A stretch of DNA of 31,612 nt from a virus. The notes below the pieces were generated by a model. The model worked only from the letters and a program-made list of their open reading frames with translations. It was not told the origin of the DNA and searched no databases. Numbering within the stretch: position 1 is the stretch's first letter; every line of letters starts with the position of its first letter. Both the position numbers and the translations under genes were made by a program. Below, in pieces: positions 1,983 to 9,631 of the stretch. The stretch is from positions 1 through 31,612 of IMG/VR virus record IMGVR_UViG_3300032265_000235, one strand, 5' to 3'.

Positions 1983-2275
1983 AGTTATTCTGTTACGAGG
2001 AAACCCACCGAAACCCTAAGCAGTAATTAGGCTGCTAATGCGACGTCATAGACGCTGTCGTTTGCATTTACGTTGTTTTGCTTGATTTACAGTCATCGCC
2101 TACTGGATCGTCCATGCATATACTTTTCGCCCTGTCGAAACCATTTCACCCCCTTCAAAAGTACACAAAGACCTTTTGACTACTGTCGATACCAATCAGT
2201 ATGTACTTTTGGTGGAGGTGGCGGCATCGAAGCCGCGTCCAGAACTCATTTCTAATTACTTCATACGATCATAAC
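1983..2275 (-). ncRNA. ssrA: tmRNA, circularly permuted (two-piece) gene
   Basis: On the minus strand the acceptor piece comes first. It has a T-arm (GCGGC TTCGAT GCCGC, about 2240-2221) and the 3' acceptor strand CACCTCC-A-CCA ending at 2210. After an intervening loop comes the coding piece, starting GGGGGTGAAATGGTTTCGAC at 2153, the standard tmRNA 5' end. GGGGGTG pairs with CACCTCC over 7 positions and keeps the G3-U70 alanine identity pair. Resume codon GCA is at 2065-2063, preceded by GTAAAT; the tag reads ANDSVYDVALAA and stops with TAA at 2029-2027. A P2-type helix joins ACGATC (2111-2106) to GATCGT (2270-2265), with CAT/ATG continuing beyond a GG bulge. The intervening loop is closed by AAAAGTACA (2210-2202) and TGTACTTTT (2165-2157), extending the acceptor stem as in precursors of permuted tmRNAs. 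The T-loop is one base short of standard. Outer ends are approximate. Confidence 0.93.
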
Positions 2276-3359: not shown

Positions 3360-3388
3360 AGTATACTGTCAATAGGGATAAAAGTCAA
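3360..3388 (-). promoter_or_regulatory. Sigma70-type promoter (TTGACT-17-TATACT)
   Basis: -35 TTGACT at 3388-3383, 17-bp spacer starting TTTAT, -10 TATACT at 3365-3360. It matches the promoter family repeated through the window. The -35 overlaps the stop codon of the upstream gene. It would drive the structured leader and the 66-aa gene. Confidence 0.75.
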
Positions 3389-3759
3389 ATAATATGCCAC
3401 CCATTATTGTTGAACATAAAACACTTACATCCATGAGAAACTGTAATTGTGGCTTCGCTATATCCGTCGATTTTGTTACCATCAGTAGTTGAAATAGTTA
3501 TCTTTCTATTTGAAAGTGGTGGAACCATTTCTGCTTTTACGATAATAATTTTTCCATCTTTCGGATTTTCTGGTAGGTAGACCGTGACTTGTTTGTCACT
3601 GACAACTCCGATGTAAAAATCATCATCTGTTGAGTGGTAGTTTGCATCAATTGTTTTAGTACTGGTGCTTCTACGACTTCTGACATTTGTGATTTTTCTT
3701 TTGAGTTCAATTACTTTCTTTGAAATTTTCTCTGAGATGTTTTTCCAAAATATATTCAT
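3385..3759 (-). CDS. Small beta-domain structural protein, paralogue 4
   Basis: A 124-residue protein with a basic N-terminus (ISEKISKKVIELKRKI, RSRRSTST) and a C-terminal domain running DDDFYIGV, VTVYLPENPKDGKIIIVKAE, NRKITIST, NKIDGYSEATITV, ending GWHII. This is the same domain as the three genes just upstream in transcription (3769-5128): a D-Y-x-I/L-x-V strand, a VTV/ITLP strand, a GKxYxVK strand, a D-G turn, and a terminal hydrophobic W. The positively charged N-terminus distinguishes this copy. Probably a virion fibre or decoration component; that assignment is inferred from composition and context. SD AAGGAAAT precedes the ATG. Confidence 0.75.
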   Translation of the reverse strand: MNIFWKNISEKISKKVIELKRKITNVRSRRSTSTKTIDANYHSTDDDFYIGVVSDKQVTVYLPENPKDGKIIIVKAEMVPPLSNRKITISTTDGNKIDGYSEATITVSHGCKCFMFNNNGWHII

Positions 3760-3768
3760 ATTATTTCC

Positions 3769-4236
3769 TTATACTAAATTCCATCTTGTTCCATCAAACA
3801 CAGCAGTAAGACTTCCCTCAGATCCGAGAGTTCTGTCTCCTGACTGGTCTAAATCTTGACCAGTACCCTTGACTTTTATGTTACCATCTGCTTGATTTTT
3901 AACCACGTAGACTTTTCCAACTATACCAGCTGGAAGTGTTATCGTGATATTCTTTTTAGTAGCACCGATATAATAATCGGTTAATGATGCAGTATAGTTT
4001 ATTGATGTAAGTTGAACATTGATTAAAGAACTGCTACTACCAGTTGCTGATAAAATACCAGATGGGGTAATAGACAACCCACTACCAACCTGAATAACTC
4101 CAAGACTGGTAGTAGTAGCTTCTTCACATTCCAATGTAACTGGAACTAATCCAGGTGGTGTTGTTGTGCTTGCTGATGGATTCTGCCTTAATGCAGTTCC
4201 TGCAAACACAACATTAGGTTGTCTACTGTAAGCCAT
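3769..4236 (-). CDS. Small beta-domain structural protein, paralogue 3 (fibre-like)
   Basis: 155 residues. The N-terminus (MAYSRQPNVVFAGTALRQNP) is low-complexity. It is followed by TTSLGVIQVGSGLSITPSGI, a repeat-type segment common in phage tail-fibre shafts. The C-terminal domain, from about residue 70, carries DYYIGATKKNITITLPAGIV, GKVYVVKNQ, GNIKVKGTG and TAVFDGTRWNLV, the same fold signature as its neighbours. It is 3 bases downstream of 4240-4638. Likely a trimeric fibre or head-fibre component; the fibre role is inferred. Confidence 0.8.
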   Translation of the reverse strand: MAYSRQPNVVFAGTALRQNPSASTTTPPGLVPVTLECEEATTTSLGVIQVGSGLSITPSGILSATGSSSSLINVQLTSINYTASLTDYYIGATKKNITITLPAGIVGKVYVVKNQADGNIKVKGTGQDLDQSGDRTLGSEGSLTAVFDGTRWNLV

Positions 4237-4239
4237 GAT

Positions 4240-4638
4240 TTAAGTCAGCAACCACTGAACGCCATCATAGATCAGAGTCAGTGAACCATATGGCGCATTA
4301 ATGACAGCATTCACAGAACCATCAATGGTACCTGCAGTCGGGACAATAGTAATAGGTGTTGCAACACTTGCGAGACCTAGTCCATCTTTAATGATAAAAG
4401 TTTGACCTGTTACACCAGCTGGTAAGTTTACTGCCACTGGTACTGGTCCAGGAACTTGAACACTAACAGCAGCATCAGCTAAAAGAACTGCTACTGGAGT
4501 TGTTAGAGCAATTCTAATTGCTGTAATAACTACACCACCTGCTGCAATAGTAATTCTATTTGCACCAGTACCTGTGGTTGGCGTTACGGTAATACCTGAA
4601 CCTGCGATGATCGAGGTAGGATTATTTGTATATGACAT
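4240..4638 (-). CDS. Small beta-domain structural protein, paralogue 2
   Basis: 132 residues, Ala/Val/Thr-rich. The N-terminus MSYTNNPTSIIAGSGITVTP leads into a domain with VAVNLPAGVTGQTFIIKDGL, TPITIVPTAGTIDGS, AVINAPYGSLTLIYDGVQW and LLT. NAPYGSLTLIYDGVQW is nearly the same as NSPYGSIQLIFNGTDW in paralogue 1, which shows recent duplication. SD AAAGGAAAA precedes the ATG, within an AATAATAACAAC leader shared with the gene at 5180-5959. Confidence 0.8.
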   Translation of the reverse strand: MSYTNNPTSIIAGSGITVTPTTGTGANRITIAAGGVVITAIRIALTTPVAVLLADAAVSVQVPGPVPVAVNLPAGVTGQTFIIKDGLGLASVATPITIVPTAGTIDGSVNAVINAPYGSLTLIYDGVQWLLT

Positions 4639-4681
4639 TTTAGTTTTCCTTTGTTGTTATTATTTTGGATAGATAAAGATC

Positions 4682-5128
4682 TTACACGATGCTCCAGTCA
4701 GTTCCATTGAATATCAATTGAATAGAACCATATGGAGAATTGATGGTTGCAGTTGAACCATCGACTAATTGACCACCAGTTCCTTGGATGGTTATAGGAT
4801 TATTGTTGGCATCACCAAAACAATCTTTCACGATATAAACTGTTCCACGAATACCAGTTGGTAAAGTAATTGTTACTGGACCATTAGTTAACACACAAAG
4901 CATATAATCAGTTGATAATGCAGTGTATGTTGGGGTTGCGACATCTGTCACAGAAACAGGACTTGGATTTCCTCCACCAATAATTTGGTTACCTGAACCA
5001 ATATTGATGTTATCATTATCATTAATAATTTTTTGTTGGGGTATTCCAGGAATACCACAAGATGTGTATGGTTCTAATGGTGGCATCATTGATGCCCAAT
5101 AGGGTTGAATTCTTTGATATTGATACAT
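4682..5128 (-). CDS. Small beta-domain structural protein, paralogue 1
   Basis: 148 residues. The N-terminal 60 residues are rich in Pro, Asn, Gly and Tyr (MYQYQRIQPYWASMMPPLEP, then NINIGSGNQIIGGGN). The C-terminal domain contains DYMLCVLTNGPVTITLPTGI, GTVYIVKDC, NPITIQGTGGQLVDGS, INSPYGSIQLIFNGTDW and SIV. It is the first of four tandem copies in transcription order. It follows a terminator (5144-5174) and has SD AAGGAGA seven bases before its ATG. Confidence 0.8.
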   Translation of the reverse strand: MYQYQRIQPYWASMMPPLEPYTSCGIPGIPQQKIINDNDNINIGSGNQIIGGGNPSPVSVTDVATPTYTALSTDYMLCVLTNGPVTITLPTGIRGTVYIVKDCFGDANNNPITIQGTGGQLVDGSTATINSPYGSIQLIFNGTDWSIV

Positions 5129-6054: not shown

Positions 6055-6321
6055 TTAAACTGCGGATCTGGCTATTGTAGCTGCTTCTTCAGCTACTGGA
6101 GTTCCAGCAGCAAGTGCTACTAGGTCATCAGCTACTGTTAGTGTGCGACCTTTTCCATCTTCGCTAAGTTTTACTGCTCTAGTGATCATTGTGTGAATAT
6201 GATCTTTTGTAATGGCTTCTGATTTAGCAAAGTCTAAGATTGTTGCTAATAGCCAGTTTTCTAGAGCAATAGAACCGTATTCGCAGGTTTCTTCTGTGAT
6301 TGTTTTGACGCGTTTGCGCAT
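6055..6321 (-). CDS. Hypothetical protein, 88 aa
   Basis: The start at 6321 is chosen for the AGAGGA site ten bases upstream; a longer frame to 6372 begins with an Asn-rich low-complexity stretch that is the untranslated leader. The protein runs MRKRVKTITEETCEYGSIAL, then two or three helices, ending ATIARSAV. No membrane segment or motif is recognised. It is just upstream of the glycine-rich virion gene and may belong to the same late unit. Confidence 0.65.
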   Translation of the reverse strand: MRKRVKTITEETCEYGSIALENWLLATILDFAKSEAITKDHIHTMITRAVKLSEDGKGRTLTVADDLVALAAGTPVAEEAATIARSAV

Positions 6322-6540
6322 AGGTAATTCCTCTTTGTTATTATTATTATCGGAATTGAGTCTTTGACTCATCAGCGATCTTCTTTGAGATCTAACTGTA
6401 TTTAGAGGATTTGTTGGAGTGTTTTCAACAAATCATGAAATATATTTTGAGATCCAGTTAAGGTAAGACTGGAACCATCCTTGAGTAATATGCTCACTTA
6501 ATCCTGCGGATCACAGTAACTAGGAAGCCTAGTGAAATTT
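6322..6540 (-). other. Structured intergenic region downstream of tRNA-Val
   Basis: No protein gene is seen. In transcription order after tRNA-Val it has a perfect 6-bp hairpin (ACTAGG/CCTAGT, 6519-6533), then a GATCC...GGATC-bounded segment (about 6452-6513) holding TGAG/CTCA and CCAGT/ACTGG stems and a T-arm-like GGTTCCAGTC. A perfect 9-bp hairpin follows (GATTTGTTG/CAACAAATC, 6408-6434), then TCTAAATAC (near 6400), a relaxed late-promoter-like box before the 88-aa gene. The middle part looks like a degraded tRNA. Confidence 0.4.
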
Positions 6541-6615
6541 TGGTACCTTGTGACGGGTTCGAACCGCCGACCTTCTCCGTGTAAAGGAGACACTCTGCCG
6601 CTGAGTTAACAAGGC
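6541..6615 (-). tRNA. tRNA-Val (anticodon TAC)
   Basis: A full cloverleaf: acceptor GCCTTGT/ACAAGGT with G1-U72, anticodon arm TCTCC-TTTACAC-GGAGA, T-arm GGCGG-TTCGAAC-CCGTC, A73 and encoded CCA. It reads GUA. Confidence 0.96.
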
Positions 6616-6623
6616 TTATTCTA

Positions 6624-7055
6624 TTATTTCCAACTAGTTTTAAGTATCAAAACCTTCGGATTAATGCCCATCATTTTGGCGACCATCAATCTTGTATTCC
6701 CTGCAACTAGAGTATATTTTCTGCCACCTTCATAAGACAAAAGAATAGGAGCTCTGACGCTATTACTTTCATACTCTTTTATTACGCTATCGATATCTCT
6801 TTTACCACTAGATGCTGAATTAGATTTGATAGCCTTCATAATCTTTTCTCTTGTGTCTGTATGATAACTATCTGTGTTTTCTAGTATTTGCCAGATACGT
6901 GTTGAGATTAGTGATACTCTGGCTGTTGTATATATTTGTTTAATTTGAAACATTTTATAATCCCAATCAGGATCTGTGCCATTTGAGAATTGAGAGACGA
7001 CTCTGTCGAACTCGTCCATTTCGTTTTCAAATTTTGATTTCTTATAATTTATCAT
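6624..7055 (-). CDS. ParB/sulfiredoxin-fold protein
   Basis: 143 residues. The C-terminal 45 residues, RAPILLSYEGGRKYTLVAGN followed by TRLMVAKMMGINPKVLIL, carry the ParB-like 'GNTRLxxAxxxG' core: a substrate strand, the G-x-x-R helix start, then a hydrophobic strand. The N-terminal part is helical and charged, with no HTH evident. Small ParB-like proteins are common in T4-like phages, where some are DNA-binding or nuclease-like; the role is unknown here. The start overlaps the GroES-like stop by one base (TAATG), so the genes are coupled. Confidence 0.7.
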   Translation of the reverse strand: MINYKKSKFENEMDEFDRVVSQFSNGTDPDWDYKMFQIKQIYTTARVSLISTRIWQILENTDSYHTDTREKIMKAIKSNSASSGKRDIDSVIKEYESNSVRAPILLSYEGGRKYTLVAGNTRLMVAKMMGINPKVLILKTSWK

Positions 7056-7303
7056 TATTCTTCGTAAACAGCCAACACATTAGTCATTGGGACTTTGTAT
7101 GTGTTGAGTTCTAACTTTTTCGTGTCTGGCCAATGCACCAGTACTCGATCGCCGACTACAACTTCATCAACATCAGATGCAACTGCGATCACGTGTGCAA
7201 TCTCTTGCTCTTGTGAATTCTGCAGGACGATACCTGAATCAGTGACCTTAGAGCCTTCTGAAACACGAACGATGATGTTGCCACTCATTGGAATATAGTT
7301 CAT
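7055..7303 (-). CDS. GroES-like co-chaperonin (gp31 functional analogue)
   Basis: 82 residues, shorter than GroES (about 97). The order is as in Cpn10: an N-terminal strand (YIPMSGNIIVRV), a mobile-loop-like KVTDSGIVLQNSQEQE with the GIVL tripeptide that contacts GroEL, AHVIAVASDV, the VGDRVLVHW strand, and a final NVLAVYEE strand. T4 gp31 replaces GroES so that host GroEL can fold the capsid protein gp23; a similar role is inferred here. It is immediately downstream of tRNA-Gly. It lacks part of the roof loop. Confidence 0.78.
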   Translation of the reverse strand: MNYIPMSGNIIVRVSEGSKVTDSGIVLQNSQEQEIAHVIAVASDVDEVVVGDRVLVHWPDTKKLELNTYKVPMTNVLAVYEE

Positions 7304-9359: not shown

Positions 9360-9442
9360 CATAATAAGTGTGCCCTCGACCGACGAGCTCTCGAAGTTAC
9401 GATACTGGCAATCACGCACCGTCTTATCACACACTTATTATG
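9360..9442 (-). ncRNA. Long-stem tRNA-like element A
   Basis: A 13-bp perfect inverted repeat (9360-9372 with 9430-9442; core ATAATAAGTGTG) encloses 57 nt. On the minus strand the interior contains a possible GTGAT/ATCGT arm with loop TGCCAGT, and an ACTTCGAGAG stretch reminiscent of a T-loop, but no proper cloverleaf. It lies 8 bases upstream of tRNA-Lys in transcription order and may serve as a processing signal or be a decayed tRNA. Confidence 0.5.
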
Positions 9443-9530
9443 ATATCATAGTGAAGCATAGCACTAGCCAGTTGAATACAGCCGACCAGACTTCCTTATC
9501 AGTGAAGTGCTATGCTTCACTATGATGTCA
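9441..9530 (-). ncRNA. Long-stem element B (21-25 bp stem)
   Basis: A 21-bp perfect inverted repeat, 9445-9465 with 9506-9526, extendable to 25 positions (9441-9465/9506-9530) with one mismatch. The loop is 40 nt. The right arm contains ATGCTTCACTATGAT, related to the arms of C and E. Its TTCAACT stretch is only weakly T-loop-like. A perfect stem this long is a likely RNase III substrate; that is inference. Confidence 0.55.
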
Positions 9531-9631
9531 CCATATTGAAATGCACTACCAGTCCTAGGGAGTCGAACCCTCTGTCTCTTATAGTTTACCACGACTTTCA
9601 CGGTCAGGCAAGCAATGCATTTCAATATGGT
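9530..9631 (-). ncRNA. Long-stem tRNA-like element C
   Basis: A 16-bp perfect stem (9530-9545 with 9616-9631) around 70 nt. The minus-strand interior holds a T-arm-like AGGG-TTCGACT-CCCT and a GAC-CGTGAAA-GTC arm. The stem shares CCATATTGAA with element E. It abuts element B at one base and element D on the other side. No CCA end or normal D-arm is visible. Confidence 0.55.

Follow-up and report, generated by a model that had tools for sequence, protein, structure and literature searches.

We identify a circularly permuted tmRNA of the betaproteobacterial type in a virus contig from IMG/VR, encoded at about 2275-1979 on the minus strand of the window, the 31,612-nt stretch analysed here, which is the whole of record IMGVR_UViG_3300032265_000235. 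A preliminary description made from the letters had proposed a permuted tmRNA on this strand, and an Rfam scan confirms the gene where it was placed: the model RF04321 (tmRNA_permuted) matches end to end at 2270-2027(-) with 136.9 bits (E 4.8e-27; gathering threshold 47). The beta_tmRNA model RF01850 matches over its whole length at 2312-1957(-) with 107.7 bits (gathering threshold 84), compared with 84.2 bits for the alpha model RF01849 (gathering threshold 50). The E values of the full-length matches, 4.8e-27 and 4.2e-32, are far beyond chance. This kind of RNA is already known; the new parts are the form of its T-loop and its mosaic history.

Both pieces of a two-piece tmRNA can be read directly at 2275-1979(-), in the order first described: the acceptor piece (2210 to about 2275; P2 5′ strands, T-arm, acceptor 3′ strand and CCA) lies ahead of the coding piece (about 1979-2153; acceptor 5′ strand, D-loop, P2 3′ strands, tag and 3′ hairpin), with an intervening sequence between them. 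GGGGGUG (2153-2147, with G3) and CACCUCC (2220-2214, with U70) form the anticipated 7-bp acceptor stem with its G3-U70 pair, followed by A73 at 2213 and CCA at 2212-2210; together with the T-arm they make up an alanine tRNA-like domain. The T-arm, GCGGC-UUCGAU-GCCGC (2236-2221), has a 5-bp stem with a C53-G61 closing pair and a loop (2231-2226) of 6 nt rather than the usual 7, a feature absent from the preliminary description whose form recurs in other viral tmRNAs. As had been claimed, P2 bridges the two pieces, through GUUCU/AGGGC (2245-2241 and 2133-2129) and GAUCGU/ACGAUC (2270-2265 and 2111-2106). The 56-nt intervening sequence (2154-2209) is closed at its ends by a helix that reaches into the CCA; this helix had been put at 9 bp, whereas the minimum-free-energy fold gives 12 bp, against a shuffled mean of 4.2. 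The tag frame was also read correctly: ANDSVYDVALAA is encoded at 2065-2027(-) by GCA AAC GAC AGC GUC UAU GAC GUC GCA UUA GCA GCC UAA, ending in the canonical ...ALAA degron and a UAA stop at 2029-2027, where the RF04321 match also stops. A 3′ hairpin, GGUGGGU...ACUCACC (2009-1979), completes the gene, and the fold of the whole RNA is more stable than that of shuffled sequences (z = -2.8).

These helices are conserved among 61 viral relatives. The inner P2 is paired in 87% of cells (shuffled maximum 77%), the outer P2 in 81% (69%), the T-stem in 86% (76%) and the 3′ hairpin in 76% (65%), and most pairs of these helices show double, compensatory changes, including 5 of 5 pairs of GUUCU/AGGGC, 5 of 6 of GAUCGU/ACGAUC and all 7 of the 3′ hairpin. 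The acceptor stem is 100% paired and is uninformative in this set because it is almost invariant. The ends of the intervening loop also pair in the relatives, over a mean of 10.1 bp versus 3.6 in shuffled sequences (p<=0.05 in 47 of the 61 genes). The nearest rows in a gene tree are viral, with a best identity of 80% (to L067), and no close bacterial tmRNA was found within a narrow bacterial sampling. The window tmRNA seems to be a genuine member of a group of phage tmRNAs, and one that evolves.

The surrounding genes agree with the proposal of a T4-like carrier, since the contig encodes UvsX, a gp41-like helicase, DNA polymerase, RegA, clamp, clamp loader, UvsW and a late sigma factor. The DNA polymerase shares no more than 44% identity with its counterparts from isolated phages, among which cyanomyophages rank first. 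ARAGORN finds 15 tRNAs on the minus strand of the window, among them a tRNA-Gln(UUG) directly downstream of the tmRNA (1969-1896, minus strand). It is followed by a gene for an LpxH-like calcineurin phosphoesterase (1892-1122, minus strand; PF00149, with NF003743 below cut-off), whose place downstream of the tmRNA is conserved in related phages. SmpB was not found among the window proteins scanned, the contig being part of a genome. That the host is a betaproteobacterium is a guess from the tmRNA type. Sigma-70-like sites at the gene occur at chance level with no promoter standing out, and the late promoter TATAAATA is absent before it. This T4-type promoter does occur at a nearly fixed distance upstream of the acceptor piece in 8 of the 61 viral permuted genes (L238, L243, L246, L259, L276, L280, L039 and L098), which suggests late expression of the tmRNA in those eight phages. 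Elsewhere in the window, four adjacent small ORFs at 3385-5128(-) look alike by eye (3385-3759, 3769-4236, 4240-4638 and 4682-5128); three of them have weak tail-fibre or baseplate matches, suggesting duplicated tail modules. A 30-nt inverted repeat, 90% complementary, lies at 9436-9535, where 500 nt with no clear gene separate the tRNA cluster from the helicase gene.

The T-loop of the bacterial tmRNAs examined is 7 nt long and closed by G-C, whereas the window gene has 6 nt closed by C-G; the Rfam models do not require the 7-nt loop, usual though it is in these RNAs. A pattern scan for the 6-nt T-arm form identified 51 viral contigs, and 44 of the 50 searched have an RF04321 match, 43 of them above the cut-off. 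When viral permuted genes were scanned without selection on the T-loop, 84 of 90 had 7 nt and six had 6 nt. The 6-nt T-arm also occurs in genes of ordinary one-piece order, with the coding part first, in the viral records G062, G054 and G087. These three had been candidates for a split, two-gene tmRNA, as records with an acceptor piece and no RF04321 match, and were rejected on finding their one-piece genes (that of G062 is matched by RF00023); G096, with its acceptor piece close to the end of the contig, yielded no coding part. In bacteria, the T-loop is 7 nt in 26 of 26 permuted genes of one set, in all 25 readable alphaproteobacterial genes, and in every readable permuted T-arm sampled, alpha and beta; Alphaproteobacteria were sampled through their phylum, as the route via L213 led to another class. 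One-piece genes called by ARAGORN have 7 nt in 82 of 83 cases, although sets built on ARAGORN calls may under-represent short loops. The exception is L164, a Fibrobacter MAG locus with several tandem tmRNA calls at 6320-7214, one of which has an odd T-arm.

Direct searches for the 6-nt T-arm pattern in bacteria gave no match in 399 genomes of one betaproteobacterial order and none in 198 genomes from the phylum to which the Bacteroidetes MAG L171 belongs. The 7-nt pattern matched 8 of 60 genomes of the same betaproteobacterial order, and the 6-nt pattern could therefore have found about 50 cases in the 399 if the form were usual there. A 35-nt T-arm query against isolated phages returned no recognisable 6-nt tmRNA among the matches listed. 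With the window gene as nucleotide query, only the tRNA-Gln part matched among the listed matches in isolated phages, and plasmids gave only short matches. The 6-nt loop was probably gained or lost more than once, because explaining the 6-nt group on a 146-gene tree takes no fewer than 3 changes along well-supported branches, a count drawn from a short alignment in which the bootstrap is not settled. A partial literature search found no published account of 6-nt T-loops in tmRNA, and the 6-nt T-loop with a flipped closing pair is, as far as could be tested, new here. We interpret it as a viral alteration of the elbow formed by the T-loop and the D-loop, and it poses the question of whether seven residues are required in the elbow of a tmRNA. 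Since at least some genes with 6-nt loops escape ARAGORN, phage tmRNAs are probably undercounted.

To reach orthologues, the downstream phosphoesterase was used as a query, giving 80 viral loci. It replaced L284, a close UvsX sister, which had no match in the whole record and whose fetched stretch ends ahead of the tmRNA. A permuted tmRNA lies upstream of the phosphoesterase gene in 19 of the 80 loci, about 11 of them non-redundant; L472, a doubtful twentieth, is not counted. At least five acceptor-stem sequences occur in these phages (GGGGCTG/CAGCTCC, GGGCCGG/CCGGTCC, GGGCCAG/CTGGTCC, GGGCCTG/CAGGTCC and GGGGGTG/CACCTCC), each fully paired and with G3-U70 kept. The finder demanded pairing and U70, which makes failures uncountable and leaves the diversity on both sides of the stem as the informative part. 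The T-loops are UUCGAUU, UUCGACU, UUCGAGG, GGCAGUA (L469) and UGCGAUU (L499), the 6-nt form occurring in none, and the tags called by ARAGORN end in LAA or MAA. Two of these genes, L469:3744 and L499:1118, combine alphaproteobacterial-type T-loops with an otherwise beta-like gene, that of L499 on a stem CCGGG/CCCGG like L436 and L437; judged from such sequences, T-arm exchange among phage tmRNAs seems frequent. At L480, L482, L518 and L504, the tmRNA genes beside the same phosphoesterase gene have unusually long tags, for example ANANTFDFSAMSFTGNTVRGAANESRFALAA.

The window gene resembles different sister phages in different parts. Of the sister phages L467 and L468, L467 shares the neighbours of the window gene, and its phosphoesterase is 98% identical to that of the window. 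L467 differs in its 7-nt T-loop, its acceptor stem GGGGCUG/CAGCUCC and its tag ANDNAFLMAA, while L067 has the 6-nt T-loop and a tag of the same family and is unlike the window in P2. Across P2 and the pre-tag region, the window matches L467 at 55/56 positions and L067 at 43/57; across the tag block it matches L067 at 46/48 and L467 at 29/48. The T-arm with the acceptor 3′ strand (26/27 for L067, 24/28 for L467) and the acceptor 5′ strand with the D-loop (23/23 and 20/23) also match L067 better. Between P2 and the 3′ hairpin, with substitutions alone considered, the 66 informative sites form 10 runs against an expected 33 (p about 2e-5). The gene is a mosaic, with P2 like one sister phage and the tag like another, and recombination would explain it most simply; uneven constraint could contribute to the pattern.

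A further side observation concerns the intervening sequence of other viral permuted tmRNAs, which in two phage lineages contains an HNH-type endonuclease ORF (phrog_3322): in L042 at 4256-4813 (T-arm at 4160, coding piece at 4806) and in L272 at 1848-2438, with L246 and L257 arranged alike. Its reading frame continues into the tmRNA coding piece, and it looks like a homing endonuclease housed in the removed loop.

Taken together, both pieces, the joining pairing, the alanine identity pair, the CCA, a complete tag frame with its stop and conservation in related phages are seen in the sequence, and the gene probably encodes a working tmRNA that rescues ribosomes through host SmpB, alanyl-tRNA synthetase and ClpXP, where expression, processing and function are inferred. 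The RNA would be transcribed together with the phage tRNAs, its intervening loop would be cut out by host tRNA-processing enzymes, and the host alanyl-tRNA synthetase would charge it. Host SmpB would then deliver it to ribosomes that have stalled on broken mRNA in the infected cell, and ANDSVYDVALAA would direct the stalled peptide to ClpXP, freeing the ribosome for phage translation. The preliminary description had also raised a redirecting of tagged proteins; nothing points there, because the tag is the canonical degron. During T4 infection host tmRNA remains abundant, and the authors of that study suggest that ribosomes are kept available by it (PMC9697503). If the window tmRNA is functional, it gives the phage a control of its own over stalled ribosomes during the destruction of host mRNA.

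The 6-nt T-loop could weaken the contact with SmpB or the synthetase, and its place in the elbow region is one reason to consider that the phage RNA interferes, titrating host SmpB or acting poorly, so that host trans-translation is damped. A precedent is the tmRNA of mycobacteriophage DS6A, which has the tRNA-like domain only and has been cited as a likely inhibitor through SmpB titration (PMC4131195). We nevertheless consider interference unlikely: the window gene keeps its tag frame, stop codon, P2 and 3′ hairpin with covarying helices, a tag would be superfluous in a decoy, and most viral relatives have 7-nt loops (84/90). That the gene is instead a recently captured bacterial tmRNA, decaying or neutral and of no use to the phage, would fit its mosaic sequence and its patchy occurrence, since RF04321 detects a permuted tmRNA in 1 of 50 records with related UvsX, most of which are fragments. 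This passenger status is already disfavoured and distinctly improbable, given the orthologues in the same place in about 11 non-redundant phage loci, the compensatory changes in viral relatives and a nearest neighbour that is viral, no sampled bacterial tmRNA being close in the narrow sampling. A chance or tRNA-like match is a negligible prospect; ARAGORN, run on the window, did not call the gene and nothing more speaks for this reading, which is refuted by the Rfam E values as well as by the tag frame and the comparative support.

A broader and speculative idea, which we regard as possible but doubtful, is that viral tmRNAs, one-piece and permuted, repeatedly gained a T-loop of 6 nt and an inverted closing pair, a form unused by bacteria, and that tag and tRNA-like blocks were swapped by recombination. 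The change might let the phage RNA escape an agent directed at host RNA, such as a nuclease, a modification enzyme or a T-loop-targeting integrase, and still rescue ribosomes. The syntenic phage copies, with their varied acceptor stems, T-loops and tags, amount to a natural mutagenesis of tmRNA that could be assayed directly.

Phage-borne permuted tmRNAs have been published and are abundant in IMG/VR; RF04321 and a database holding 79 bacteriophage tmRNA sequences originate from one study (PMC11915505), and 53 two-piece tmRNAs, 50 of them from marine or aquatic samples, were predicted in phage genomes in another, which described that of phage Melnitz (PMC9004378). The betaproteobacterial permuted tmRNA (RF01850, part of RF04321) shares with the window gene the gene order, 7-bp acceptor with G3-U70, P2, 3′ hairpin, D-loop GGUUUCGACAGG, resume region and a tag of the form AND...ALAA. 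It differs in its T-arm (7-nt loop and G53-C61, versus 6 nt and C53-G61) and in its tag (10 residues in those sampled here, versus 12), and the window gene, unlike it, is phage-borne. The ssrA of the Methylophilales phage Melnitz (MZ577097, L438) is likewise a permuted two-piece tmRNA of a T4-like myophage (Kyanoviridae). It belongs to the alpha type and its T-loop, GGCAGUA, is 7 nt long, whereas the window gene is closer to the beta type; it is reportedly under a glutamine riboswitch, beside a transcription coactivator gene (PMC9004378), whereas a tRNA-Gln and a phosphoesterase gene adjoin the window gene. Alcaligenes phage vB_Af_QDWS595 (OK149171, L457), a phage of a betaproteobacterium, carries an unannotated beta-type permuted tmRNA (L457:1435-1782; 93.8 bits) among tRNAs, eight of them nearby; it differs from the window phage in being N4-like (Schitoviridae), and its tmRNA in having a 7-nt T-loop and the tag ANDNVYAAAA.
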